DNA from: Actinoplanes teichomyceticus ATCC 31121
GTDB lineage: Bacteria; Actinomycetota; Actinomycetes; Mycobacteriales; Micromonosporaceae
NCBI RefSeq assembly: GCF_003711105.1
Contig: NZ_CP023865.1
Location: forward strand, 5,419,001 to 5,483,000
Length of the DNA stretch: 64,000 bases
Direction of reading: 5' to 3'
Positions 8,212-21,232 of this stretch are shown one piece after another. Each line of letters starts with the position of its first letter. Position 1 is the stretch's first letter. A program made the position numbers and the translations under genes. The notes beneath the pieces are model-generated. The model was not told the origin of the DNA and ran no database searches. It saw nothing but the letters and a program-made list of their open reading frames with translations.

Positions 8212-10014
8212 GTGCTTGCCCCGGGAATCGTGCTCAACGACCGCTACCAGCTGACCCACCGGATCGCGGCGGGCGGGATGGGCGAGGTGTGGCGCGGCGG
8301 TGACCTGCTGCTGCGCCGCGAGATCGGGGTCAAGGTGCTGCTGCCGGCCCTGATGTCGGACCGGGAGTTCATCACCCGGTTCCGCTCCGAGGCCCGGATG
8401 ATGGCCCAGCTGCGGCATCCCGGCGTGGTCCAGGTCTACGACTACGGCGAGAACGCGGTCGTCGACGGCGAACGATTCGACTACCTGGTGATGGAGTTCA
8501 TCGAGGGCACATCGCTGTCGAACCGGATCCAGCAGGCCGGGCGGCTCTCACCGGCCGAGACGATGACCCTCACCGCCGGGGTCGCCGACGCGCTGCACGC
8601 GGCGCACCAGGCCGGCATCATCCACCGCGACGTCAAGCCCGCCAACCTGCTGGTCCGGCCGAACGGAGCGATCGTGCTGGTCGACTTCGGGGTCGCCCGG
8701 TCCCTCGGGGTCACCGGCATCACCAGCACGAACGTGGTGATGGGGTCGGTCAACTACATGGCGCCGGAACAGGCGGAGGGCCGCCCGGTCACGGCCGCCA
8801 CCGACGTGTACGCCCTGGGCGCGGTCGCCTACGCCTGCCTGACCGGCCGCCCGCCGTACGTCGGCGACAACCCGCTGGCGGTGCTCACCCAGCTGGTCCA
8901 CGGCCAGCCCCCGGTCCTGCCGCCGGACGTGCCCCGGGCGGTCGCGGCGGTGGTGATGCGCGCGCTGGCCAAGGACCCGGCGCAGCGCTTCCCGAGCGGA
9001 GCCGCCTTCGCCGACGCGGCCCGCAACGCCGGTCGCGCCCCGCACGGCGGCCCGGTCGCGCCGACCGGCGCCTGGGGTGCGCCGACGGTTCCGCACCGGG
9101 CCGCCCCGCCGAGCGGACCGCACCCGGCGATGCCGCCCACCTCGGCGCACCCCGCGACGCCGCCGACCGGACCGCACCGGCCGATGCCCGCGACCGGACC
9201 GCACCGGCCGACGCCCGCGACCGGACCGCACCGGCCGACGCCCGCGACCGGACCGCACCGGCCGATGCCCGCGACCGCCGTGCAGGCGGCCGTGCCGCCG
9301 TCCGGACCGCACCCGGCCGGGGCCGCCTTCGGAGCCGCCGCGCCGCCGGACTTCCCGGCGGCGGCCGAACCTGCCGGCCGGGGCCGCAGGCGGAATCCGG
9401 GCCTGGTGGCCGCCGCGGCCGGCCTGATCCTCGTCGGCGGCGGCGTGCTGCTGGCGGTGTGGCCGGACTCCGCCGACACACAGCAACCCCAGGTCACCGC
9501 CGGCGCCGGCCAGCAGGCGCAACCCGGCCCCACCGGCAAGCCGGCCCGGCCGACGCCGACCCGCAAGCGGGCCGAGCAGACCACGGAGCCGGACGACGAG
9601 CCGGCGGACGCCGTCACGCCCGAGGAGTCGGAGGAGGACGAGCCGGACCGGGACACGCCGCTGCCGGAGGAGGACGCCCGGGAGACGGACCCGGGCGAGG
9701 CGTGCGGTGGCGGTTACGAGCCGCGCCAACAGACCGACCTGACGTCCGCGGGCGCCGTGCAGGGCCGGGTCCACCTGCTGTACCGCGACTCCGACGCGTC
9801 GTACTGCGTGGTCACGGTGCGGACCGCCGGACTGGAGCGCAAGGCCGCCGCGTCGGCCTATCTGCAGGTGCAGGGCCAGGACCGGATCACCGACAGCGGG
9901 CCGGTGCAGTACTTCGCCGGCCCGGTCACCGCCACCGCCCCGGGCACCTGCGTGAAGTTCGGCGGCTCGATCGGCCCGCTCACCTTCGACAGCGACTTCG
10001 TGGGCTGCGAATAG
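8212..10014 (+). CDS. Receptor-type serine/threonine protein kinase (PknB family)
   Basis: A 600-residue single-pass membrane kinase. Residues 8-270 are the kinase domain: glycine loop IAAGGMGEVW, ATP lysine in GVKVLL, catalytic loop HRDVKPANLL, metal site VDFGVAR, and activation-segment end MAPEQAEG. A Pro/His-rich linker (about 280-390) contains four identical-length 9-residue repeats of the type ATGPHRPTP. One transmembrane helix follows (GLVAAAAGLILVGGGVLLAVW, about 403-423), then an acidic Pro/Thr linker and an extracellular domain of about 100 residues with cysteines at ACGGGYEP, SYCVV and TCVKFGG. The GTG start at 8212 is the only in-frame start before the glycine loop. It lacks PASTA repeats, so its ligand is not muropeptide by the usual domain. 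Confidence 0.93.
   Translation: MLAPGIVLNDRYQLTHRIAAGGMGEVWRGGDLLLRREIGVKVLLPALMSDREFITRFRSEARMMAQLRHPGVVQVYDYGENAVVDGERFDYLVMEFIEGTSLSNRIQQAGRLSPAETMTLTAGVADALHAAHQAGIIHRDVKPANLLVRPNGAIVLVDFGVARSLGVTGITSTNVVMGSVNYMAPEQAEGRPVTAATDVYALGAVAYACLTGRPPYVGDNPLAVLTQLVHGQPPVLPPDVPRAVAAVVMRALAKDPAQRFPSGAAFADAARNAGRAPHGGPVAPTGAWGAPTVPHRAAPPSGPHPAMPPTSAHPATPPTGPHRPMPATGPHRPTPATGPHRPTPATGPHRPMPATAVQAAVPPSGPHPAGAAFGAAAPPDFPAAAEPAGRGRRRNPGLVAAAAGLILVGGGVLLAVWPDSADTQQPQVTAGAGQQAQPGPTGKPARPTPTRKRAEQTTEPDDEPADAVTPEESEEDEPDRDTPLPEEDARETDPGEACGGGYEPRQQTDLTSAGAVQGRVHLLYRDSDASYCVVTVRTAGLERKAAASAYLQVQGQDRITDSGPVQYFAGPVTATAPGTCVKFGGSIGPLTFDSDFVGCE
9163..9270 (+). repeat. Four 27-bp in-frame tandem repeats in the kinase linker
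   Basis: Four near-identical 27-bp units (gcgaccggaccgcaccggcc plus 7 bases) encode (A/P)TGPHRP(M/T)P. The unit length is a multiple of three, so copy changes would alter linker length without breaking the frame. Confidence 0.85.
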
Positions 10015-10060: not shown

Positions 10061-10846
10061 ATGACCGGCGAACGATGGCGGGGACAGGCGGGAGCGAGAG
10101 CCGCGCTGATCGGCCTCGCGCTGGGCGTGCTGGCGCTGGGCTGGCTCGCCGCGCTGGGCGCCGGCCGGTGGCCGGTCGGCGTGGTCGTCGCGGTCGACCT
10201 GCTGCTGGTGGCGGTCTGCGCGCGCCATCTCCGGGCCGCCGGCGCCGAGCCGGGTGACGACGCCGGCGCCGGTCCGCAGCCGCCGTACGACAGCCTGACC
10301 GGCCTGCCCGGCCGGCGGACGCTGACCGCCGTGCTGGAACGCACCCTGCCCGTCGCCGACGCCGACCAGGAGCCGGCCGGCCTGGTGCTGCTCGACGTGA
10401 CCGGCCTCGCCGACGTCAACGACACGCTCGGCCGGCGCGTCGGTGACCTGCTGCTGGCCGAGATGGCGGCCCGGCTGACCGCCGCGGTGCGCGACACCGA
10501 CACGGTCGCGCGCTCCGGCGGCGACGAGTTCGCCGTGCTGCTCCCCCAGGTCGGCTCCGCGCCGGCCGCGCTGGAGACGGCCCGTCGCCTGCGGGACGCC
10601 GTGCGGGGCCCGGCCGACCTGGACGGCTTCCAGGTCCAGCTCAGCGTCACGGCCGGCGCCGCCGTCTATCCGGTGCACGCGACCACCGCGACCGAACTGC
10701 TGCACCGGGCGGAGGCCGCGCTGCGGGCCGCCGGGCAGTCCCGCGACGGCGTCGTGGCGTACGGCGAGCGCTCCCGCCCCGAGGTGCCGTCCCGCCCGGG
10801 ACGGCCGGCTCTCGACGCCGCCCGCCGATCCGGCCGGGCCCGCTGA
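10061..10846 (+). CDS. Membrane-anchored diguanylate cyclase (GGDEF)
   Basis: A 261-residue protein with two N-terminal transmembrane helices (AALIGLALGVLALGWLAAL, VGVVVAVDLLLVAVC) and one cytoplasmic GGDEF domain (about 80-245). The active-site loop RSGGDEF is intact and the inhibitory I-site RDTD lies five residues ahead of it, so it should make cyclic di-GMP from two GTP with product inhibition. DSLTGLPGRR marks the domain start. The C-terminal 20 residues are Arg/Pro-rich. It follows the kinase gene on the same strand by 46 bases and could share its transcript. No sensor domain is visible. Confidence 0.92.
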   Translation: MTGERWRGQAGARAALIGLALGVLALGWLAALGAGRWPVGVVVAVDLLLVAVCARHLRAAGAEPGDDAGAGPQPPYDSLTGLPGRRTLTAVLERTLPVADADQEPAGLVLLDVTGLADVNDTLGRRVGDLLLAEMAARLTAAVRDTDTVARSGGDEFAVLLPQVGSAPAALETARRLRDAVRGPADLDGFQVQLSVTAGAAVYPVHATTATELLHRAEAALRAAGQSRDGVVAYGERSRPEVPSRPGRPALDAARRSGRAR

Positions 10847-11335: not shown

Positions 11336-12631
11336 CTACGTCCCGCCGAGCTCGTTCAGCTCTCGCCAGAGCCGGGCGGCCCGCCGGTAGTCGGCCATCC
11401 CCTCGGCCGCCCGCGCGGCGTCCCGCAGCATCCGCGCCGCCTCGCCGGTCCGGCCGGTCGCGGCCAGCGCGCCACCGAGCGCGTGCCGGAAACGCACACC
11501 GTCCGGGCCGTTCAGCGTGCCGACGTCCACGGCCGACGCCATCTCGACGGCCTGCTCCAGAGCTCCGGTGGCGATCGCGTACCGCACCTCGAGGGCCCGC
11601 AACCGGCCGCTGTCGACATCCGACCCGGCCGCGGTCGCGGCCCGCGCGGCCTGCATGTGCGGCTCGATCTCGACCGGGTCGGCGCCCAGGTCCAGCAGCG
11701 TGGAGGCGGCCGCCCGGCTGAACCGGGCCCAGTCCCGCAACGGCGTACGCGGATCGGCCAGCATCCGCCGCGCGCCACCGAGCAGCTCCACCGCCCGTTC
11801 CCGCTCACCCACCCCGGCCAGCGCGGCGCCGGCCGCCCACCGGGCCCGCCCGCTGATCGCCGGGCTGCCGAGCTCCTCGGCCATCGCCAGCATGGTGTTC
11901 ACCAGGCGGACGATCTCGGTGCCGCCCCCGGACTCGGCGAGCACGGAGATGTGCACGGCCAGCAGCTTGACGTGCTCGCTGCTGCCGCGGAACGCGGACG
12001 CGTGGATGTCCCGCCCGGCCTGTTCCACGTGCGTGAACGCCTCGTCCAACCGGCCCAGGTCACGCGCCGCGGCGGCCAGCGCGACCCGTACCCGCACCCG
12101 CGCCTCGACGACCCCGACCGCGTCGGCGGCCGGCAGCAGGGCGTTCAGCACCTCGTACCGCCCGGCCCGGTCGCCGCGCAGCTCGCGCACCTGCTCCAGC
12201 GCCATGCCGTGGCTGAGGACCGCGCCCGGATTGCCGGCGGCGACGGCGGACTCGTACATCCCGGTGATCCACCGCTCGGCCCGCTCCAGGTCACCCTGGT
12301 CGATGGCGCTCGCGGCGAGCAGTTGCCGGGCCAGGTCGGCGTCCGGCGGCGCGGTGGCCGCCGGCCCGGCGGCGGGCCCGGCGGCGGACTCCACGGCGGA
12401 CTCGGCGGCGCCGAGGCAGAGGTCGCCGGTCAGCGCGGTCACCGGCACGCCCAGAGTCCTGGCGAGGTGCGCGGCCACATCCAGGGTCGGCACCCGGGCG
12501 CCGGACTCCAGCAGCGAGACGTAGGACTGGTTGACCGCGCCGGACGCCAGGTCACGCTGGGAGAGGCCGCGCCCGGTGCGCAGCTTCCGCAGCCGGACGC
12601 CGAACTCCGGCTGAGAGATCTGGGCGACCAC
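11336..12631 (-). CDS. XRE-family transcriptional regulator with TPR-like C-terminus
   Basis: A 431-residue regulator. Residues 8-65 are a Cro/C1 helix-turn-helix (FGVRLRKLRTGRGLSQRDLASGAVNQSYVSLLESGARVPTLDV, quoted as a region with LSQRDLA and SYVSLLESG as the key helices). The remaining roughly 340 residues are Ala/Leu-rich helical pairs typical of tetratricopeptide repeats, as in peptide-sensing or secondary-metabolism regulators. I prefer the GTG at 12631 to the one at 12637 because AGGA then sits 7 bases upstream. Its own promoter contains a perfect copy of the box found at the small membrane protein gene downstream, so it probably represses itself and that gene. The ligand is unknown. 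Confidence 0.85.
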   Translation of the reverse strand: MVAQISQPEFGVRLRKLRTGRGLSQRDLASGAVNQSYVSLLESGARVPTLDVAAHLARTLGVPVTALTGDLCLGAAESAVESAAGPAAGPAATAPPDADLARQLLAASAIDQGDLERAERWITGMYESAVAAGNPGAVLSHGMALEQVRELRGDRAGRYEVLNALLPAADAVGVVEARVRVRVALAAAARDLGRLDEAFTHVEQAGRDIHASAFRGSSEHVKLLAVHISVLAESGGGTEIVRLVNTMLAMAEELGSPAISGRARWAAGAALAGVGERERAVELLGGARRMLADPRTPLRDWARFSRAAASTLLDLGADPVEIEPHMQAARAATAAGSDVDSGRLRALEVRYAIATGALEQAVEMASAVDVGTLNGPDGVRFRHALGGALAATGRTGEAARMLRDAARAAEGMADYRRAARLWRELNELGGT

Positions 12632-12683
12632 GAGCACATCCTGTCAGCGGACCACGCGGCCGCGCCGGGCCGCCTTCCCGCTG

Positions 12684-12713
12684 AGATTACTGCAGTAATG
12701 AACCGGCCATCAA
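12684..12713 (-). promoter_or_regulatory. Autoregulated promoter of the XRE regulator
   Basis: On the minus strand TTGATG (complement of 12708-12713), an 18-bp spacer and TAATCT (complement of 12684-12689) form the promoter. The perfect 14-bp palindrome ATTACTGCAGTAAT (12686-12699) overlaps the -10. Such a site is expected for autorepression by the downstream HTH protein. Confidence 0.6.
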
Positions 12714-12918
12714 CGCCGTGTCACCGCCGAGGTCGTCGCCCCGCTCCGCGCCGGGACCGCCGCGACCGGCGCCGCTAGGAGCGCCGCGCCGCGCCTCGCC
12801 GGGCCAGATGACCGGGTCCACGCCGACGCGGCCAGGTCAGAGCCGCGCCAGCGACGCGGGACCGGGCCGCATGAGCCGCGTCAGCGACGCACGACCGGGC
12901 TGTGTGACGATCGTCAGC

Positions 12919-13200
12919 GGCGCGCAGCCAGGGCCGCATGACCAGCGTCAGCGGCGCGCAGCCAGGGCCGCATGACCAGCGTCAGCGGCGCGCAGCCGAG
13001 GCCGCATGACCAGCGTCAGCGGCGCGCAGCCGAGGCCGCATGACCAGCGTCAGCGGCGCGCAGCCGAGGCCGCATGACCAGCGTCAGCGGCGCGCAGCCG
13101 AGGCCGCATGACCAGCGTCAGCGGCGCGCAGCCGAGGCCGCATGACCAGCGTCAGCGGCGCGCAGCCGAGGCCGCATGACCAGCGTCAGCGGCGCGCGGC
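12919..13200 (+). repeat. 34-bp minisatellite, eight full copies plus a ninth inside the methyltransferase gene
   Basis: Units start every 34 bp at 12919, 12953, 12987, 13021, 13055, 13089, 13123, 13157 and 13191. The consensus begins ggcgcgcagccgaggccgca and ends with 14 more bases; the first two units have agccaggg and the rest agccgagg. Two more diverged units can be seen from about 12850. The last unit contains the final codons and stop (GCGCGCCGCTGA on the minus strand) of the methyltransferase gene, so the array appears to be a copied-out 3' end of that gene. The 34-bp period is not a multiple of three, there are no spacers, and no unit forms a strong hairpin. Confidence 0.9.
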
Positions 13201-13932
13201 CAGGGCCGCGTGGCGGCCCTCGCGCCAGAGGGCTCCCGCCTCGCCGAAACCGGCGGCGCGGGCCGTGGCGGCGTGCCAGTTCAGGCCGGCGGTGAAGGCG
13301 GCCGGCGGCCGGTCGCGGAAGAGGCGGGCGCGGGCGGCCATCAGATGCCGGAATTCCGGTACGGCGGCGAGCTCTCCCCACCACTGTGCCCAGGCCAGCT
13401 CGGCGGCGGCCTCGCCGGGCCCGGGGTCGAGGGCGGCCATCAGCTCGGGCAGGCCGTCGTCGGGCATCAGGTCGGCGACGACGAGCAGCCCGCCGGGGGC
13501 GAGGGCGTCGCGGGCGGCCGCGTACAGCGCCCGGATCGCCTCCGGGGTCAGGTAGTGCACGGTCATCACCGCGGTGATCAGGTCGTGTGCGCCCCCGGTG
13601 GCGGCCGGCCAGCTCGCCGCCAGGTCGGCGCGGACCACGCCGACCGTGCCGGGCAGCCCGGCGCGGGCCAGTTCGAGCAGCACCGGGTCGAGGTCGACCA
13701 GGGTGATCGTGGCGTCCGGCCAGCGGGTGGCCATCCGTTCGGCGAGCAGGCCGGGGCCGCCGCCGAGGTCGAGCACCCGGCCGGGCGGCGCGCCGCGCAG
13801 CGCTTCGACGGCGGCGCCGAGGACGCGTTCCAGCCCGGCCAGCCCGGGGACGAAGCTGGTCATCATCGCGTCCCAGGTGGTACGCCAGCCGGCGACGCGG
13901 GCGGGGTCGAGCGCGATCGGCGTCGTCGTCAT
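13186..13932 (-). CDS. Class I SAM-dependent methyltransferase
   Basis: A 248-residue cytoplasmic methyltransferase. The SAM-binding motif I VLDLGGGPGLLAERM (about residues 55-69) is clear, followed by the acidic motif II ITLVDLDP and motif III DLAASWPAATGGAHDLITAVMTVHYL. The length is typical of the Methyltransf_25/UbiE-like group acting on small molecules. The last six residues (ALAARR) and the stop codon lie in the first unit of a 34-bp tandem array that extends downstream. It is transcribed apart from the PLP operon. A weak Zur-like palindrome lies about 60 bases upstream. Confidence 0.88.
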   Translation of the reverse strand: MTTTPIALDPARVAGWRTTWDAMMTSFVPGLAGLERVLGAAVEALRGAPPGRVLDLGGGPGLLAERMATRWPDATITLVDLDPVLLELARAGLPGTVGVVRADLAASWPAATGGAHDLITAVMTVHYLTPEAIRALYAAARDALAPGGLLVVADLMPDDGLPELMAALDPGPGEAAAELAWAQWWGELAAVPEFRHLMAARARLFRDRPPAAFTAGLNWHAATARAAGFGEAGALWREGRHAALAARR

Positions 13933-13988
13933 GGCTGCTGCTTTCTGAACCCACGGAGATGGCTCCCCGGACCTGACCCAACGGGAAA

Positions 13989-14003
13989 TGACAACCGTTT
14001 TTA
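13989..14003 (-). promoter_or_regulatory. Possible Fur/Zur-type box upstream of the methyltransferase
   Basis: TGACAACCGTTTTTA (complement TAAAAACGGTTGTCA) is an AT-rich imperfect palindrome 57-71 bases upstream of the methyltransferase start. It resembles the actinobacterial Zur box TGAAAATGATTTTCA at about 10 of 15 positions. It is only suggestive. Confidence 0.25.
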
Positions 14004-14020
14004 ACAGATCCCGGTCGCGG

Positions 14021-15208
14021 CTACGCGGAATTCAGCTCGGCGAGCCGGGCGAGCAGCCGGTCGATCTCCTGCGCGGTGTTGTAGACGTGCAGGCTCACCC
14101 GTACCGAGGCGGTCTCCTCGCCATGCTCCCCCTGGCAGTGACCGTCGGCCCGGACCAGCAGCCCGTCCGCGGCCAGGATGAACCCGAGGTCGTTGGAGCC
14201 GATCGCGCGGTGCCGGAAGGTGACGATGCCCTGCCGGCGCTGCACCGCCGACCCGGCGGCCAGGCTGTCCTGACAGCCGAGCACCTGGTAGGCGTCCAGC
14301 CCGGACAGTCCCGCGGTGAGCCGGGCGCCCAGGTCCCGCGTCCACCGGGCGATCCGGTCCGGCCCGGCCGCGTCCAGCCAGTCCAGCGCCGCGGCCAGGC
14401 TGACGATGCCGCTGGTGTTCGGCGTGCCCTGCCAGCCGGCCGGGACGTACGCCGGGCCGCGCCGGTTGCCGGCCCAGATCACGCCGGTGCCGGGCAGGGC
14501 CATCGCCTTGTGCCCGGAGAACACCAGGAAGTCCACGTCCAGATCGGCCACCGACACCGGCATGTGCCCGACACTCTGCGCGGCGTCCAGGCAGATCGGC
14601 ACCTCCGGCCCGGCGGCGGCGCGCAACCGGGCCAGGTGCATGTCGTTGCCGTACACGTGGTGCACGTGGGTGGCCGCGATCATCCTGGTCCGCGGGGTGA
14701 CCAGCTCGGCGAGGCGGGCGGCGTCGTAGTCGTGGGCGCTGTCGTACGGCATGGCGCGCAGGGTGACCCGGGCGCCGCCAGCCCGGGCCACGGCGGCGGC
14801 CTCCTGCCAGGGCGCGATGTTGGCGTTGTGGTCGGCGAACGGGACCACGATCTCGTCGCCGTCCCGCAGCTGGGGCGCCAGCCAGTCCCGGGCGACCGCG
14901 CGCAGCCCCTCGGTGGCGCCGCTGACGAAGTGCACGCCGGAGCGCTCCGGCGCCGGGTCGGCCAGGAAGGCGCGCACCCGGTCGCGGGCCTGCTCGACCC
15001 GGGCGGTGGTGCGGTTGGCCCAGGGGTACGTGCCCCGGGCCGCGTTGGCGTTCTCGCTGGTCAAATACGCCATGACGGCGTCCAGGACGGGCTGCGGCTT
15101 CTGCGCGGTGGCAGCGCTGTCCAGGTACGCCACGTCCGGGTGGGCGGTGACGATCGGGAACTGCTCGCGCAGCGCGCGCTGCCAGGACGCCGGCTCAGTC
15201 GCGGACAA
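14021..15208 (-). CDS. SufS/CsdA-like cysteine desulfurase (aminotransferase class V)
   Basis: A 395-residue fold-type I PLP enzyme. The PLP lysine is in VFSGHKAMALPGTG (about residues 228-241), with CLDAAQSVGHMP supplying the pyridine-nitrogen aspartate and ATHVHHVYG the ring-stacking histidine. The C-terminal loop VRADGHCQGEH aligns with the SufS loop carrying the sulfur-accepting cysteine, so desulfuration of cysteine to a protein persulfide is plausible. It is the last gene of a three-gene operon: its first 14 bases overlap the end of the cysteine-synthase/rhodanese gene. No suf or isc assembly genes are nearby, so I infer a role in a dedicated pathway rather than general Fe-S assembly. 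Confidence 0.85.
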   Translation of the reverse strand: MSATEPASWQRALREQFPIVTAHPDVAYLDSAATAQKPQPVLDAVMAYLTSENANAARGTYPWANRTTARVEQARDRVRAFLADPAPERSGVHFVSGATEGLRAVARDWLAPQLRDGDEIVVPFADHNANIAPWQEAAAVARAGGARVTLRAMPYDSAHDYDAARLAELVTPRTRMIAATHVHHVYGNDMHLARLRAAAGPEVPICLDAAQSVGHMPVSVADLDVDFLVFSGHKAMALPGTGVIWAGNRRGPAYVPAGWQGTPNTSGIVSLAAALDWLDAAGPDRIARWTRDLGARLTAGLSGLDAYQVLGCQDSLAAGSAVQRRQGIVTFRHRAIGSNDLGFILAADGLLVRADGHCQGEHGEETASVRVSLHVYNTAQEIDRLLARLAELNSA

Positions 15209-16511
15209 GTTCGGCTCCGGCGTCGCGCCAGGCGATGATCCCGCCGGCCAGGGAGTGCACGGCCGGGTGGCCCATCCGGGTGAGCAGCGCGGCGTACTTC
15301 GCCGACTTCTCGCCGACCGGGCAGACCAGCAGGACCGGGCGGCGGCGGCTGAACGGCAGGCCGGCGTGCAGCAGGTCGGCGAACACCTCGTCGACGATGT
15401 TGATCGAGCCGGCGATGTGCAGGGCCTGGTAGGCGTACGGGCTGCGCAGGTCCACCACGAGCGCGCCGGTCTCGGCGAGCCAGCGCTGGGCGGCGTCGGT
15501 GGGCAGTGCCGGGGCGGCGGCCACCTCGGCGTCGGTCAGGGTGCGGGCGGAGTTGCGCCGGGGTGGTCGGCCGAACAGCTCGGGGCGGCGGTCACGGACG
15601 TACGAAAGGTAGCTCTCCACCCGGTCGCAGACGATGAACACGGCGGTCTTCCGGCTGGTCAGGCGCGCGTCGATGGGGCGCAGGTGGCGCAGGGCGCCCT
15701 GGAACGCGCCGCCGCCGGTCGGCCCGGTCAGGATCCCGCACCGCCGGATGAGGGTGAGTAGCCCGTCGATCGCGTCGTCCGCGGTGACCGTCTCCACGGC
15801 GTCGTACACGCCGGGATCGAACAGGCCCACCTCGTGCACCTCGTCGATGGTGCGGATGCCCGGGATGAAGTCGCTCTTGGCGGCGACCAGGCCGACCACC
15901 TCGACGTCCGGGTTGTGCTGGCGCAGCACCCGGGCCACGCCGGTGGACGATCCGGCCGTGCCGACGCAGGCGACGAAGTAGTCCGGGGCGTGCCCGTCCA
16001 GGTCCTTGACGATCTCCGGGCCGGTGCCGTGCACGTGCGCTTCCACGTTGCGCTGGTTGAAGTACTGGTCGGTGTGCAGATAGCCGCCGCCGTCCTCGGC
16101 CAGCCGCCGGTACATCCGGGTGAGCGGGTCGTCGCTGTCGGTCGGGTCGAGACACTCCGACTGGCCGGGCAGCTCGTCGATCTCCGCGCCGAGCAGCAGC
16201 AACAGCTCCTTGATCTCGGGCACCTTCATCCGGTTGGTGACGCTCTTGAACGGCAGCCCGTGCATCCCGGCCAGCAGCGCCAGGGCCTTCGCGGTGTTGC
16301 CGCTGGACAGCTCGACCACGGTGGCGCCGGGATCCGCGCCGGCCAGCAGCGGCCGGGCCATGTGCCAGGCGGCCCGGTCCTTCACCGAGCCGAACGGGTT
16401 GAGCAGCTCCAGTTTGGCGTACAGGTCGACGTGGGTGAGGCCGTGCACGGCCGGGTCGATGCGGACCAGCGGGGTGTTGCCGATCGCCTCGGTGATGTCG
16501 TCGTGTCTCAT
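15195..16511 (-). CDS. Cysteine-synthase-like PLP enzyme fused to a C-terminal rhodanese domain
   Basis: A 438-residue fusion. Residues 1-320 are a fold-type II PLP enzyme: PLP lysine in NPFGSVKDRAAWH, substrate loop ELSSGNTAKAL, phosphate loop GTAGSSTGVA and the C-terminal GILTGPTGGGAF. Residues 345-435 are a rhodanese domain with VVDLRSPYAYQALHIAGSIN and the active cysteine in LLVCPVGEKSAKY. The ATG at 16511 is chosen because AGGAGGTGCC precedes it and ATGA overlaps the stop of the upstream gene. The fusion puts a persulfide carrier next to a beta-replacement site, suggesting that sulfur passed from the downstream desulfurase is added to an activated serine-type substrate. SbnA-like formation of a diaminopropionate precursor is the alternative. 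Confidence 0.85.
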   Translation of the reverse strand: MRHDDITEAIGNTPLVRIDPAVHGLTHVDLYAKLELLNPFGSVKDRAAWHMARPLLAGADPGATVVELSSGNTAKALALLAGMHGLPFKSVTNRMKVPEIKELLLLLGAEIDELPGQSECLDPTDSDDPLTRMYRRLAEDGGGYLHTDQYFNQRNVEAHVHGTGPEIVKDLDGHAPDYFVACVGTAGSSTGVARVLRQHNPDVEVVGLVAAKSDFIPGIRTIDEVHEVGLFDPGVYDAVETVTADDAIDGLLTLIRRCGILTGPTGGGAFQGALRHLRPIDARLTSRKTAVFIVCDRVESYLSYVRDRRPELFGRPPRRNSARTLTDAEVAAAPALPTDAAQRWLAETGALVVDLRSPYAYQALHIAGSINIVDEVFADLLHAGLPFSRRRPVLLVCPVGEKSAKYAALLTRMGHPAVHSLAGGIIAWRDAGAELVRD

Positions 16512-17950
16512 GGCACCTCCTGGCGGGGGTGGACGGGCCAGTACTGCTCGTCGAGGCACCACCGGCGCAGGCCCGCGGACCGGTAGACCGCGACCTTGCG
16601 GGCGACCGGCTGGTGCAGGGCTTCGGTCGCGCTGAAGTCCATGAAGTAGCCGGCCGTGTTGACGAAGGCGAGCAGGTCGCCGGGGCGCGGCACGACCGGC
16701 AGGAACACCTGGCGGCGGGTGATCAGATCGGCCTCCAGGCAGAGGTTGCCGAACAGGTAGACGCCGGCCGGACCGGCGCGGCGCTGCCCGGTACGCGGGA
16801 TCACCACCGGGTCCATCAGCACGCCGTGCTCCTCCAGGCTGACGTCGCGGGCGTTGCAGTCGAGCCCGACCCGGATCCCGTCGTCACCGGTGGTGACCGA
16901 CAGCACCCGGGCCAGCACCAGGCCGCACTGGTCGAGCAGGGCACGGCCGGGTTCGATGTCCAGGTCGTACATGTGGTCCAGCAGCAGCTCGCCGAGCGGC
17001 CGGCCCTGGTCCGGCGCCGGGGTGCCCAGCAGCCGGTCCAGGTAGCCGGCGCCGGCCGTCGGCCGGTACGCCGGATAGACCCCGAGACTGCCGCGCAGGG
17101 TGCCGCCCTCGGCGCGCAGCCCGTACCCGTGCCCGTGCCAGGTCAGCGGCGGCCGGCGGCCGAGCACCGCCTGCCCCAGCTCGCTGGTCCACCGCTCCCA
17201 CTCCGCGCCGTCGGCCAGGTAGTTCACGCCGAAGCCGCCACCGATGTCCAGCGACCGGGGGCGCAGCCCACGAGCCCGGCACTCGTCCAGGGCGGCCAGG
17301 CAGCCCTCCACCGCCACCGCCTTCTCCGGCAGCCCGATGGTGTCCAGGTGGTACGCCACCCCGGTGAGCTCCACGTGGTCGGCCCGCTTCTCCAGCAGGT
17401 CGAGCAGCTCGGGCAGCCGCCCGGCCGGGGTGCCGAAGCGGCTGCGGCGGGTCAGCACGCGCACCCCGGACGAGGCGAACCCGGACAGCCGCAGGCTGAC
17501 CGGGACGCGGGGCAGCCGGTGCCCGGCCACGATGCCGGCCAGTTCGGCGAGCTCGTCGTGCGAGTCCACGCTGACCGTGACGCCGGTGCGGGCCGCCAGC
17601 CAGAGGAATTCGCGGTTCTTCGGCCCGGTGGCGACGATCCGGTCCGGGGTGAACCCGGCGCCCAGCGCGTGCTGCAACTCGCCGAGCGAGGCCACGTCCA
17701 CACCGGAGTCCCCGGCGGCCAGCTCGCGCAGCAGCGCGCTGGACCGGTTCGCCTTGTGCGCGTAGAACAACCGGCCGGCGAGGCGGTGCCGGCGGTAGAT
17801 CTCCCGGAAGGCGGCGACGTTTTCCGCCACCCGCTGCGGCAGGATCAGGCCGAGCGGCGAACCCAGCGCGTCCAGCAGTTCGGCGAGGAAGTCGCGGTCG
17901 TCGAGCAGGGACTGGATGGTCGGATCGATTTTAGGCGTCAGACTGAGCAT
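16508..17950 (-). CDS. Y4yA-like PLP-dependent decarboxylase (diaminopimelate/ornithine decarboxylase fold)
   Basis: A 480-residue fold-type III enzyme with a TIM barrel and C-terminal beta domain. The PLP lysine is in RLFYAHKANRS (about residue 66). SLDIGGGFGVNY is the glycine-rich phosphate loop, and HGHGYGLRAEGG and EPGRALLDQCG match the substrate and PLP contact regions of DAP decarboxylases; a cysteine near the C-terminal FGNLCLEAD is in the position of the catalytic Cys. The sequence fits the Y4yA family better than LysA. Relatives in NIS siderophore loci (SbnH) decarboxylate precursors bearing an amino acid moiety. It is the first gene of the operon, followed with a 4-base overlap by the cysteine-synthase/rhodanese fusion. 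Confidence 0.82.
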   Translation of the reverse strand: MLSLTPKIDPTIQSLLDDRDFLAELLDALGSPLGLILPQRVAENVAAFREIYRRHRLAGRLFYAHKANRSSALLRELAAGDSGVDVASLGELQHALGAGFTPDRIVATGPKNREFLWLAARTGVTVSVDSHDELAELAGIVAGHRLPRVPVSLRLSGFASSGVRVLTRRSRFGTPAGRLPELLDLLEKRADHVELTGVAYHLDTIGLPEKAVAVEGCLAALDECRARGLRPRSLDIGGGFGVNYLADGAEWERWTSELGQAVLGRRPPLTWHGHGYGLRAEGGTLRGSLGVYPAYRPTAGAGYLDRLLGTPAPDQGRPLGELLLDHMYDLDIEPGRALLDQCGLVLARVLSVTTGDDGIRVGLDCNARDVSLEEHGVLMDPVVIPRTGQRRAGPAGVYLFGNLCLEADLITRRQVFLPVVPRPGDLLAFVNTAGYFMDFSATEALHQPVARKVAVYRSAGLRRWCLDEQYWPVHPRQEVP

Positions 17951-18421
17951 CTGCGTCTCCCGAATTCACCGGCGTTTTTTCAACCTAACTGACGGCGGGT
18001 TGCCTAGCCAGACGGGGATCGGGTGAATGCCGTGTCAACGGTTTTGTCGGTGATCCACAGGAATGCTCATATGAGCACGTACGAATAGGTGCGGCGGGTC
18101 GGCCTCCCGCCCATTCACTCATCCCGTGAAGCCATTGATCGCCGTCCCGACAAAGTGCGATGTGTCGTTGTGCCACCCGGCACGATTTCCGGGCCGGACC
18201 GGACCGCGGTGGCCTCCGCACGGCCGGCCGGCCGCGCACGCGGCCGGCGTCCACCGTGGACCCGCAGGTCGGCGACGGTCCGGGCGAGCGGGACGGCCGC
18301 GCTGCTGGCGACGTCCCGGCGTGCCGGAGAAGCCGTGCTCACGGGCAGCTCCGGGGGCATTTCCGGGCCATGCGGCCGGCGCCGCTCCCGATCGCCGGGA
18401 GTCGCGGAGGTCCGCGCGGGG
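17951..18421. other. Intergenic region between the PLP operon and the MFS gene
   Basis: No gene is convincing here. Short frames on both strands are Arg/Pro/Ala-rich without domain marks. A possible operon promoter on the minus strand is TTGACA (complement of 18033-18038), about 85 bases upstream of the decarboxylase start, but without a clear -10. The first 100 bases are locally AT-richer. Confidence 0.4.
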
Positions 18422-18457
18422 TTGAAAACCGTACGTACGTACTGTTAGATCGCCGGT
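18422..18457 (+). promoter_or_regulatory. Promoter and palindromic operator of the MFS gene
   Basis: TTGAAA (18422-18427), a 17-bp spacer and TTAGAT (18445-18450) form a near-consensus promoter. The spacer holds the perfect 12-bp palindrome GTACGTACGTAC (18431-18442), a form typical of TetR/AcrR operators. The start of transcription would fall at about 18457, next to the ATG at 18458, so the message is probably leaderless. A repressor bound here would block RNA polymerase. Confidence 0.65.
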
Positions 18458-19648
18458 ATGCGCGTGCTCCTCCTCGCCTCGCTGATCAACGCGTTCGGCA
18501 ACGGCGCCTACCTGACCACCAGCGTTCTGTTCCTGACCACGGTGGCCGGGCTCAGCCCCGCGACGATCGCCCTCGGGCTCAGTGCCGGGGCCGCCGCCGG
18601 CGTGCTGGCGATGGCCCCGCTCGGCTACGTCGCCGACCGGTACGGCCCGAAACGGCTGCTCCTGCTGGCCATGATGGTGCTCGCCGGGGCGTACACCGCC
18701 CTGCTCGCGGTGCACTCGGCGGCGCCGTTCACACTGCTGTCCTGCGTGATCGCGGTGGCCACCGCACTGGCCAAGGGGGCCAACGGCGCCCTCGCCGCCG
18801 GAGCCGTGCCGGCCGCGGACCGGCTGCGGATGCGGGCCCGGCTGCGCACCATGACCAACGCCGGGATGGGGCTCGGCACCGTGGCCGGCAGCGTGCCGCT
18901 GCTGGCGCACACCGATACGGCGTACGTCGTGATCCTGCTCCTGAACGCCGCCACCTTCCTCGCCGCGACCGCCCTGCTGACCCGCGCTCCCGCCGTCGCG
19001 CCACAGACCACCCCGGCCGGCGGGCCGCGCCTCGTCGCCCTGCGCGACCGGCCGTTCCTGGCCTTCGCCGCGCTGGACGGCCTGCTCTCCAGCACCTACA
19101 ACGACCTGCTCGGCATCGGCCTGCCCCTGTGGCTGGCCAGCGGTGCGCACGCCCCACTCTGGCTGATCTCGGCAGCCCTGGTGATCAACACGGCCGGGTG
19201 CGTGCTGCTGCAGGTACGGATGACCGACGGGGTGCACGGCCTGCCCGCCGCCCGCCGCTACGCCGTGCGCGGCACGGTGGTCATCGCGCTGGCCTGCGCG
19301 ATCTTCGCGAGCACCGCCGGGCGCTCACCGTGGGTCGCCGGAACGCTGATCGCCGTGGCCGCGGTGACCCACGTGCTCGGCGAGCTGTGGCTGTCCACCG
19401 CCAGCTGGGGCATCGTGTTCGAGCTGGCCCCGTCCTGGGCGCAGGGGCAGTACCAGGGAACGTACTTCGCCGGCCGCGGCCTGGGCGACATGGTGGCGCC
19501 GCCGCTGGTCACGGCGTGCGTACTGGGCCTGCACGCCGGGGGTTGGCTGCTGCTGGGACTGTTCTTCGCGGTCGGCGGCCTGCTCTACGGGCCGGTCACC
19601 CGGTGGGCCGCGCGCACCCGCCCGGCCCCCGCTCCGGCAACCGCCTGA
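18458..19648 (+). CDS. Major facilitator superfamily transporter
   Basis: A 396-residue integral membrane protein with about 12 hydrophobic helices and no other domain. The conserved MFS loop between helices 2 and 3 is seen as LGYVADRYGPKRLLL (G-x-x-x-D-R-x-G-x-R/K). The central loop (about residues 180-205, TRAPAVAPQTTPAGGPRL) separates the two six-helix halves. This arrangement fits a proton-coupled drug or metabolite exporter. It is divergent from the three-gene PLP operon, which suggests export of that pathway's product or uptake of a precursor. Its promoter carries a palindromic repressor site. Confidence 0.9.
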   Translation: MRVLLLASLINAFGNGAYLTTSVLFLTTVAGLSPATIALGLSAGAAAGVLAMAPLGYVADRYGPKRLLLLAMMVLAGAYTALLAVHSAAPFTLLSCVIAVATALAKGANGALAAGAVPAADRLRMRARLRTMTNAGMGLGTVAGSVPLLAHTDTAYVVILLLNAATFLAATALLTRAPAVAPQTTPAGGPRLVALRDRPFLAFAALDGLLSSTYNDLLGIGLPLWLASGAHAPLWLISAALVINTAGCVLLQVRMTDGVHGLPAARRYAVRGTVVIALACAIFASTAGRSPWVAGTLIAVAAVTHVLGELWLSTASWGIVFELAPSWAQGQYQGTYFAGRGLGDMVAPPLVTACVLGLHAGGWLLLGLFFAVGGLLYGPVTRWAARTRPAPAPATA

Positions 19649-19957: not shown

Positions 19958-21070
19958 TCAGGCCCGGTGGCGCGGCAGGTCCGGGGACCAGCCGTCGGCG
20001 CCGCGCAGGAAGTCCGGGATCTCGTTGACCGCCGCCTCCGCGCGGGTGAGCTGGGGCCGCCCGGCGGTGACCAGCGCGCCGGGGCCGACGTTGCGGTATT
20101 CCCGCAGGCGCGCCTGGGTCCACGGCCAGGTGCCGAAGTCGCTCCAGGCGGTCTCGCCGACGTGCGGGCCGATCCAGGATTCGCGGACGACGGTCTGGCC
20201 GACGGCGTTTGGGTCGTTGCCGGGATGCCACGGGCGGCCCAGCAGGACCGTGCCGGCCGCGGCGTCCGAGGTGAGGCGGCAGCGGGCGAACAGCAGGCCG
20301 TGCGGGTTGGCGAGGTCGGTGCTGGGGGCGGTGACGTAGCCGTTGGGGGTGCTGCCACGGTCGAGCGAGTGGATGCGGCAGCGCTCGAAGACCGCGGTGG
20401 CCCGGCCGAAGATGAAGTCGACGTCGCCCTCGACGTGGCAGTCACGGAAGTAGGCGCGGGCGATCACCCCGGCGGCGGTGCTGTTGACGTAGAGGGTGTC
20501 CTGGTTGCCGAGGAACCGGACCCTCTCGAAGGCCAGCCGGTCGGCACGGGTGAGAACGGCGACCGCTTGCCGGTTGGTGATCTCCGGGTGGGCGGCCTCG
20601 TCGAAGAGGTTGGCGAAGGTGAGGTCGGCGGCGCGGAAATCGGCGCCACTCAGGGTCACCGAGGCGCTGCCCGAGGTGCCCCACGGGGTGCCGTCCGGTT
20701 TGAGCGTGCCGTTGGCCCGGTCGTCGGCGATCACCACGTCGGCCGGGCCGGAGCCGAGGCCGCGCAGCTCCAGGAAGGTCTTTGCGGCGGGGACGACCAC
20801 CTGGCCGAGGTAGGCGCCGGGGCGGATGCCGATCACGTACGGCGTGGTCGCGCCGGACGGGGCGGCGTCGATCGCGGCCTGGACGGTGGTGAGGTCACCC
20901 GAGCCGTCGGCGGCGACGATCAGATCCGGTCGGCGGCGCCCCGGGCGGGCGCCCGGACCGTCGGCGGCGCCGGTACCCGGCACGGCGGCAGCCGCGGCAG
21001 CAGCGCTCGGCCAGGTTACGCCTGCGCCGAGGGTGGCGGTGAGTTCGAGGAAGGTGCGCCGACGCATCAT
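19958..21070 (-). CDS. Secreted pectinesterase (CE8)
   Basis: A 370-residue exported pectin methylesterase, which removes methyl esters from homogalacturonan. ATG 21070 is chosen for its GGGAGG ribosome site. The signal sequence starts MMRRRTFLELTATLGAGVTW and ends in an Ala-rich stretch; the paired arginines suggest Tat export. The right-handed beta-helix motifs of the family are present: GSGDLTTVQAAIDAAP near the N-terminus, FLGNQDTLYV (catalytic-site Gln and Asp), DCHVEGDVDFIFGRATAVFE (second catalytic Asp) and LLGRPWHPGNDP (the conserved RPW). A LacI-type palindrome lies 22 bases upstream, so induction by pectin sugars is likely. Confidence 0.92.
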   Translation of the reverse strand: MMRRRTFLELTATLGAGVTWPSAAAAAAAVPGTGAADGPGARPGRRRPDLIVAADGSGDLTTVQAAIDAAPSGATTPYVIGIRPGAYLGQVVVPAAKTFLELRGLGSGPADVVIADDRANGTLKPDGTPWGTSGSASVTLSGADFRAADLTFANLFDEAAHPEITNRQAVAVLTRADRLAFERVRFLGNQDTLYVNSTAAGVIARAYFRDCHVEGDVDFIFGRATAVFERCRIHSLDRGSTPNGYVTAPSTDLANPHGLLFARCRLTSDAAAGTVLLGRPWHPGNDPNAVGQTVVRESWIGPHVGETAWSDFGTWPWTQARLREYRNVGPGALVTAGRPQLTRAEAAVNEIPDFLRGADGWSPDLPRHRA

Positions 21071-21091
21071 TGCCTCCCGGCCCGAGCAGTG

Positions 21092-21105
21092 GGAAAGGGC
21101 TTTCC
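21092..21105 (-). promoter_or_regulatory. LacI-family operator upstream of pectinesterase
   Basis: GGAAAGGGCTTTCC is a palindrome apart from its two central bases and lies 22 to 35 bases upstream of the pectinesterase start. GGAAAG-N2-CTTTCC is a common LacI/CcpA-type site at sugar-utilisation genes, and repression of pectinesterase without inducer is the expected effect. Confidence 0.5.
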
Positions 21106-21232
21106 TCGGGCACCGTAGGCGAGTCGGTCCCGGCACGTCAATCGCCGGATCCGCAACGCGACGGCGGTGCCGGTGTCGCACGACCGCCACCGCGCCGCCC
21201 AGGACGGAGGCGCATCACATTGAATAGCGTCG

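Follow-up and report, generated by a model that had tools for sequence, protein, structure and literature searches.

Two characterized fungal enzymes provide the closest described parallels that we found to the system reported here, both combining a pyridoxal 5'-phosphate (PLP)-dependent PALP domain with a rhodanese or rhodanese-like domain. Aspergillomarasmine A (AMA) synthase joins O-phosphoserine successively to aspartate, one fungal synthase being sufficient, and its product is a zinc chelator that binds Zn, Co, and Ni and inhibits metallo-beta-lactamases by zinc removal (PMC8319579); Fda4 of Fusarium poae adds O-phosphoserine to alanine. Both enzymes couple O-phosphoserine to an amino acid through its amine. 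Here we describe a bacterial PALP-rhodanese fusion encoded within a 64,000-nucleotide stretch of Actinoplanes teichomyceticus ATCC 31121 (contig NZ_CP023865.1, positions 5,419,001 to 5,483,000; hereafter the window), where it lies in an operon not described in the open-licence PMC papers that our literature search spanned. We tentatively read its four genes as a stand-alone pathway whose product would be a small metal-chelating aminocarboxylate, with zinc and related transition metals as the likeliest targets, an interpretation that we favor while holding it at a little less than even confidence. The idea of an undescribed small metal chelator as product follows from the architecture of the key fusion, which is built like the fungal aspergillomarasmine enzyme.

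The operon spans positions 13186–17950 on the minus strand, with the genes transcribed in the order decarboxylase, PALP-rhodanese fusion, SufS-like enzyme, and S-adenosylmethionine (SAM)-dependent methyltransferase:

16508..17950, minus strand: fold-III PLP decarboxylase (diaminopimelate-decarboxylase-like), first gene of the operon; 480 aa, Orn_Arg_deC_N domain, Lys66 and Cys404 conserved
15195..16511, minus strand: PALP-rhodanese fusion; 438 aa from ATG 16509–16511, PALP and Rhodanese both above the Pfam cut-offs
15624..16496, minus strand: PALP (fold-II PLP) domain of the fusion, Pfam PF00291; Lys44 codon 16380–16382, residues counted from the 438-aa start
15222..15494, minus strand: rhodanese domain of the fusion, Pfam PF00581; active-site Cys397 codon 15321–15323
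14021..15208, minus strand: SufS-like class-V PLP enzyme; 395 aa from TTG, Lys234 codon 14507–14509, Cys358 (Cys loop) codon 14135–14137
13186..13932, minus strand: SAM-dependent methyltransferase, probable fourth gene of the operon; 88 bp downstream of the SufS-like gene

The decarboxylase and fusion genes overlap by 4 bases and the fusion and SufS-like genes by 14 bases, followed by an 88 bp gap to the methyltransferase gene. An earlier sequence-only reading of this region had reported the three genes and their overlaps, which are confirmed, but it overlooked the methyltransferase, and one listed start, that of the fusion, needed correction. The start in the open reading frame list, GTG 16562, is probably too early, and ATG 16509–16511 is the better choice because it forms a typical ATGA junction (a 4-base overlap with the decarboxylase TGA) and because most of the listed relatives are 430–443 aa long. 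The name Y4yA that the same reading gave to the decarboxylase is carried by none of the family models used.

The three core genes form a dedicated, conserved operon that stays intact across many soil bacteria. We compared the best 80 of 209 fusion relatives in named genomes, all chosen for holding the fusion (81 loci with the window), and in 79 of the 80 the genes for the decarboxylase, the fusion, and the SufS-like enzyme are neighbors with a shared orientation. The sole exception, L032, has no recognizable decarboxylase in the test used, and the decarboxylase and SufS-like matches in L009 are partial only; the simple gene-calling method that we applied misses genes, such as the L013 decarboxylase, which was found by tblastn. 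Among 396 genomes of the phylum, five (the window's own genome counted) have a fusion match at E 1e-80, which suggests that the pathway is accessory and patchy, and the five further loci recovered from four of these genomes all hold the three core genes on one strand. The SufS-like gene accompanies the fusion in every case (80/80 and 5/5). The proposed joint pathway was to fall if homologues never co-occurred, and the near-constant grouping just described (79/80 and 5/5 loci) defeats that objection. In 72 of the 80 loci the core genes are followed, in the same orientation, by a relative of the methyltransferase gene; the Streptomyces methyltransferases are about 29–36% identical to the window's and are taken as the same gene from position and family. 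Flanking genes vary between clades, some of which keep their own, so the operon behaves as a self-contained unit.

The nearest rows to the window in the fusion tree are L010, L009, L021, and L011, all from Actinoplanes. More distant are the Nocardia-type loci L104 and L105, whose products have 47–49% (fusion), 37–38% (SufS-like), and 38–39% (decarboxylase) identity to those of the window, and whose gene order is SufS-like, a heavy-metal-associated (HMA)-domain protein, decarboxylase, and fusion. The label derives from the L104 fusion, which is identical to a Nocardia carnea protein, and L105 has the same genus code. One genome, G050, carries both versions, L104 and a closer copy, L103, in which the fusion is 67% identical to that of the window.

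Judged by family models, the operon enzymes are paralogues of housekeeping enzymes. The fusion scores 168.9 bits against the cysteine synthase CysK/CysM model (cut-off 344.15) and 141.1 bits against SbnA (cut-off 349.95), the SufS-like protein scores 259.7 bits against SufS (cut-off 475.1), and the decarboxylase scores 107.5 bits against LysA (cut-off 297.9). A separate SufS above its cut-off (G000 1914322, 580.8 bits) and four cysteine synthases above theirs are encoded elsewhere in the genome. The claim that the fusion is something other than an ordinary cysteine synthase holds up on these scores, given how far it falls below the cut-off and that the genome has four such synthases elsewhere. 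The catalytic residues are nonetheless retained: PALP Lys44, rhodanese Cys397, SufS-like Lys234 and Cys358, and decarboxylase Lys66 and Cys404 are each at least 98.5% conserved at the filled positions of alignments of 79–81 sequences. The SufS-like protein thus has both the PLP lysine and the active-site Cys loop of SufS, and the codons of all six residues were checked. Both sulfur-site cysteines are also present by inspection in L104 and L105.

The AlphaFold2 model of the fusion is of modest confidence (pLDDT 76, pTM 0.70), and the best solved structural match across both domains is AMA synthetase (PDB 8h4h, 8h4q); a structure prediction had been proposed as a check on the fusion, and it yields this full-length match only at that level of confidence. 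Like AMA synthetase, the fusion has PALP followed by rhodanese in a single chain (PF00291, PF00581). The overall root-mean-square deviation is large, about 18 Å, so the domain arrangement either differs from that of AMA synthetase or is poorly predicted, and for the PALP domain alone many enzymes tie as structural matches. Because of these ties, and because AMA synthetase is not nearest by sequence, the modeled match is best regarded as shared architecture and a precedent, and no proof of kinship. The nearest sequence relatives of the rhodanese domain are bacterial rhodaneses.

Metal-uptake and metal-response genes recur near the operon in a minority of loci, the sort of neighborhood expected of metallophore pathways in general and one absent from the sequence-only reading. 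Counted as presence anywhere in the fetched stretch of the 81 loci, and with identities checked by Pfam for one representative per cluster (the His-rich cluster excepted), there are 15 loci with an ABC-3 (zinc-type) permease, 13 with ZnuA, 20 with ArsR, 16 with a His-rich protein, and four with Fur; 32 of the 81 have at least one of these five clusters. In 14 of its 15 loci, the permease gene is separated from the core by 9–3846 bp. L022 carries a second methyltransferase-like gene, which makes its computed permease distance (-8127) an artefact. The genomes of the relatives have one to seven ABC-3 permease matches each, and the chance of meeting one in a 21-kb stretch is near 1% (about four loci per 9.5 Mb, kinship ignored), compared with the 15 of 80 observed. 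The ZnuA/permease label occurs in both main clades of the fusion tree and requires 14 changes on it, and these neighbors have been gained or lost many times.

The His-rich proteins are 99–118 aa long with 26–28% His (e.g. L083:13798–14094, plus strand, and 15 other loci), match no Pfam or NCBIfam family, and are encoded 146–229 bp from the operon in 13 of the 16 loci, with an ArsR gene adjoining in some. None was found in the window's genome, by a search run without a positive control. In L036 the operon is surrounded by Fur, ArsR, a znu set, and a ZigA-like COG0523 GTPase (518.7 vs 600 bits), and L088 has genes for ribosomal protein S14 and for a COG0523 protein. Fur, ArsR, COG0523, znu, and S14-type genes are typical of zinc starvation, and a Zur review covers them in part. 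Some Streptomyces loci have a nickel/peptide-type ATP-binding cassette (ABC) system, with the solute-binding cluster in six loci; the SBP_bac_5 protein of L059 is NikA-like but below the NikA cut-off. The HMA-domain genes of the Nocardia-type operons (L104:5025–6311 and L105:12066–13058, both minus strand) encode an unassigned N-terminal domain of about 340 aa followed by an HMA domain bearing a CxxC metal site; structural matches are confined to this C-terminal part (about residues 347–419). Homologous-protein lists each give 120 of 2013, 2706, and 377 matches from 8000 scored candidates; among the 120 listed of the 377 for this HMA protein, the named ones are all from Nocardia. A small CBS-domain-like protein, recognized by eye, is encoded upstream of the Nocardia-type operons (L104:8173–8622, L105:15048–15416). 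In L088, from Kitasatospora, an ATP-grasp ligase and a transporter of the major facilitator superfamily (MFS) lie between the SufS-like and methyltransferase genes (12591–15224); the ligase is above the cut-off as PRK07206-type and below it as dapdiamide-synthase-like, and may ligate an amino acid onto the product. This pair is not a recurrent insert, being present in L088 only, and the L075 insert is a different gene pair.

In the chelator pathway that we favor, the PALP domain would make aminoacrylate from O-phosphoserine (or O-acetylserine) and, by forming a C–N bond, couple it to the amino group of aspartate or another amino acid, in the manner of AMA synthase. The decarboxylase would then remove one carboxylate to leave an ethylenediamine-type unit; decarboxylation after conjugation is the logic proposed for the ethylenediaminedisuccinate (EDDS) and staphyloferrin B enzymes, and serves as the model for this step. 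The SufS-like enzyme and rhodanese domain would either handle sulfur, by adding or transferring it, or work on the backbone, the methyltransferase would cap the product, and the chelator would serve in metal uptake or buffering.

Several observations weigh against this proposal. By sequence, CysM ranks above 8h4h as a match to the fusion, 8h4h is absent from the 60 of 135 matches listed, a search with the rhodanese part did not find it, and closer kinship to AMA synthase than to other PALP enzymes is not seen. The window itself holds none of the five metal clusters, and no metal gene adjoins its operon. Zur-box-like sites are rare, those of at least 13/15 occurring in two of 79 upstream regions, compared with 0.4% of random segments. 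AMA is not known to contain sulfur, and a sulfur-free product leaves no obvious role for the two conserved sulfur-handling cysteines of the SufS-like enzyme and rhodanese.

With these cysteines thus jobless, a sulfur-based rival stays alive, and although we judge it unlikely it is the alternative that survives best. The SufS-like desulfurase would load a rhodanese persulfide for delivery to the PALP aminoacrylate, and decarboxylation and methylation would give a thiol or thioether amine, possibly a ligand for soft metals (Zn, Cu). Such a relay, proposed in the sequence-only reading, is possible from the residues present, since both cysteines are kept even in the two Nocardia-type copies; the conservation of the SufS-like lysine, the constant presence of the SufS-like gene beside the fusion, and the HMA-domain gene within the Nocardia-type operon also favor it. 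The sulfur product fares less well: nothing that we found supports a sulfur amino acid or an aminothiol, and the two characterized PALP-rhodanese enzymes that we found use amine nucleophiles. Moreover, using cysteine-derived sulfur and O-phosphoserine to produce cysteine again would be pointless unless the acceptor were unusual, and none was identified. A metal-chelator pathway is therefore more likely than a plain sulfur-amino-acid pathway, and both could be true if the chelator, as it perhaps does, contains sulfur. The fullest version of this idea, a doubtful one, is a new class of actinomycete metallophores independent of nonribosomal peptide synthetases (NRPS), with AMA-synthase-like conjugation, decarboxylation, and a sulfur ligand supplied by a desulfurase-rhodanese relay, directed to zinc in Micromonosporaceae and Streptomyces and to copper in Nocardia. 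The analogy to SbnA/SbnH and the guess of a diamine-like product in the sequence-only reading may point in the right direction; overall, its observation is confirmed and its interpretation partly supported.

It is improbable that the locus makes [S,S]-EDDS itself by an aes-type zincophore pathway, in which the PALP enzyme would form a serine-aspartate conjugate, the decarboxylase would yield aminoethyl-aspartate, and a second succinate would be added. The pairing of cysteine-synthase-like and diaminopimelate-decarboxylase-like enzymes is as in one aminopolycarboxylic-acid cluster of antiSMASH (PMC13206832), and EDDS is described as Zur-regulated in Amycolatopsis. However, the reported cluster carries an ornithine-cyclodeaminase gene, and that family (PF02423) has no match at E 0.001 in the window's genome, and the same search was positive in eight of 14 control genomes; this rejects, or at least weakens, EDDS proper. 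SufS-like, rhodanese, and methyltransferase parts are also not in that cluster's description (PMC13206832), and Zur boxes were not general upstream of the operon. Lastly, ordinary sulfur housekeeping by a module that locally supplies persulfide or cysteine, or detoxifies, with metal genes nearby through a thiol/redox stress response, would suit enzyme families that are those of primary sulfur metabolism, but is equally improbable given the low scores of the fusion and SufS-like protein, the separate SufS and four cysteine synthases, no need for a decarboxylase or methyltransferase, and a patchy spread that suits an accessory pathway.

The region upstream of the operon contains two further features:

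18458..19648, plus strand: MFS transporter, divergent from the operon; accessory, not core
18064..18077, no strand: perfect 14-bp palindrome TGCTCATATGAGCA between the MFS gene and the operon, an exact match

The divergent gene and palindrome are as the sequence-only reading gave them, but the exporter is rejected as part of the pathway core and considered accessory, since a homologue is present in only three of the 80 loci (tblastn E 1e-5). The palindrome has no second copy at 0–1 mismatch in the 8.29 Mb genome (one contig) and four places at two mismatches, and as a single copy it is rejected, or weakened, as a shared metal-regulon box. The best match to a Zur box in the window is 8/15, at background level, with a consensus that may not suit Actinoplanes. 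Among the loci the strongest sites are those of L036 and L056, the former possibly belonging to the divergent znuA-like gene; with canonical boxes in two of 79 upstream regions, general Zur control of the operon is likewise rejected or weakened. Upstream of the operon, Streptomyces loci such as L049, L059, and L064 share a conserved promoter-like block, GGGCGTAAAG...GGCTATACGGC.

Elsewhere in the window, an HTH_31/HTH_3 regulator gene (11336–12637, minus strand) lies downstream of the methyltransferase and has no match in the 80 loci. Judged from their translations, 8212–10014 and 10061–10846 (both plus strand) encode a probable serine/threonine protein kinase and a probable GGDEF-type protein, and 19958–21190 (minus strand), near the MFS gene, is pectinesterase-like and is also found in L009, L010, L011, and L021, the four closest Actinoplanes loci.

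If the chelator reading is correct, genomes of Actinoplanes, Micromonospora, Streptomyces, and Nocardia hold an unrecognized chelator pathway with a logic akin to those of EDDS and aspergillomarasmine A, providing another short NRPS-free zincophore route and a compact gene set suited to heterologous expression; it would also be relevant to the question of why fungi and bacteria alike attach a rhodanese domain to a cysteine-synthase-like enzyme.

Compared with known systems, the operon resembles AMA synthase in the PALP-then-rhodanese order, in the top full-length structural match, and in that enzyme's zinc-binding aminopolycarboxylate product, but AMA synthase is fungal and acts alone, whereas the operon adds a decarboxylase, a SufS-like enzyme, and a methyltransferase, and no sequence kinship of the rhodanese parts was detected. 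Fda4, likened by description and not by sequence, is likewise a PLP enzyme with a rhodanese-like domain; it takes O-phosphoserine and draws nitrogen from an amino acid in L-2,3-diaminopropionate (L-Dap) synthesis for fusadapamide, but has a partner oxidoreductase, Fda3, that releases L-Dap and is encoded in an NRPS cluster. The EDDS (aes), or antiSMASH aminopolycarboxylic-acid, type, as defined from one cluster (PMC13206832), shares the cysteine-synthase-like and diaminopimelate-decarboxylase-like genes and the link to zinc; it differs in its ornithine cyclodeaminase, and the rhodanese, SufS-like, and methyltransferase components are extra here. Staphyloferrin B biosynthesis differs in that the fusion is below the SbnA cut-off and no IucA/C gene is seen beside the operon; the sequence-only reading had likewise listed no adjoining NRPS or IucA/C gene, and we saw neither among the neighbors inspected, with no search aimed at them. 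Finally, the SufS-like protein shares its fold family, PLP lysine, and Cys loop with SufS/CsdA, but falls below the family cut-off in a genome whose above-cut-off SufS lies elsewhere.

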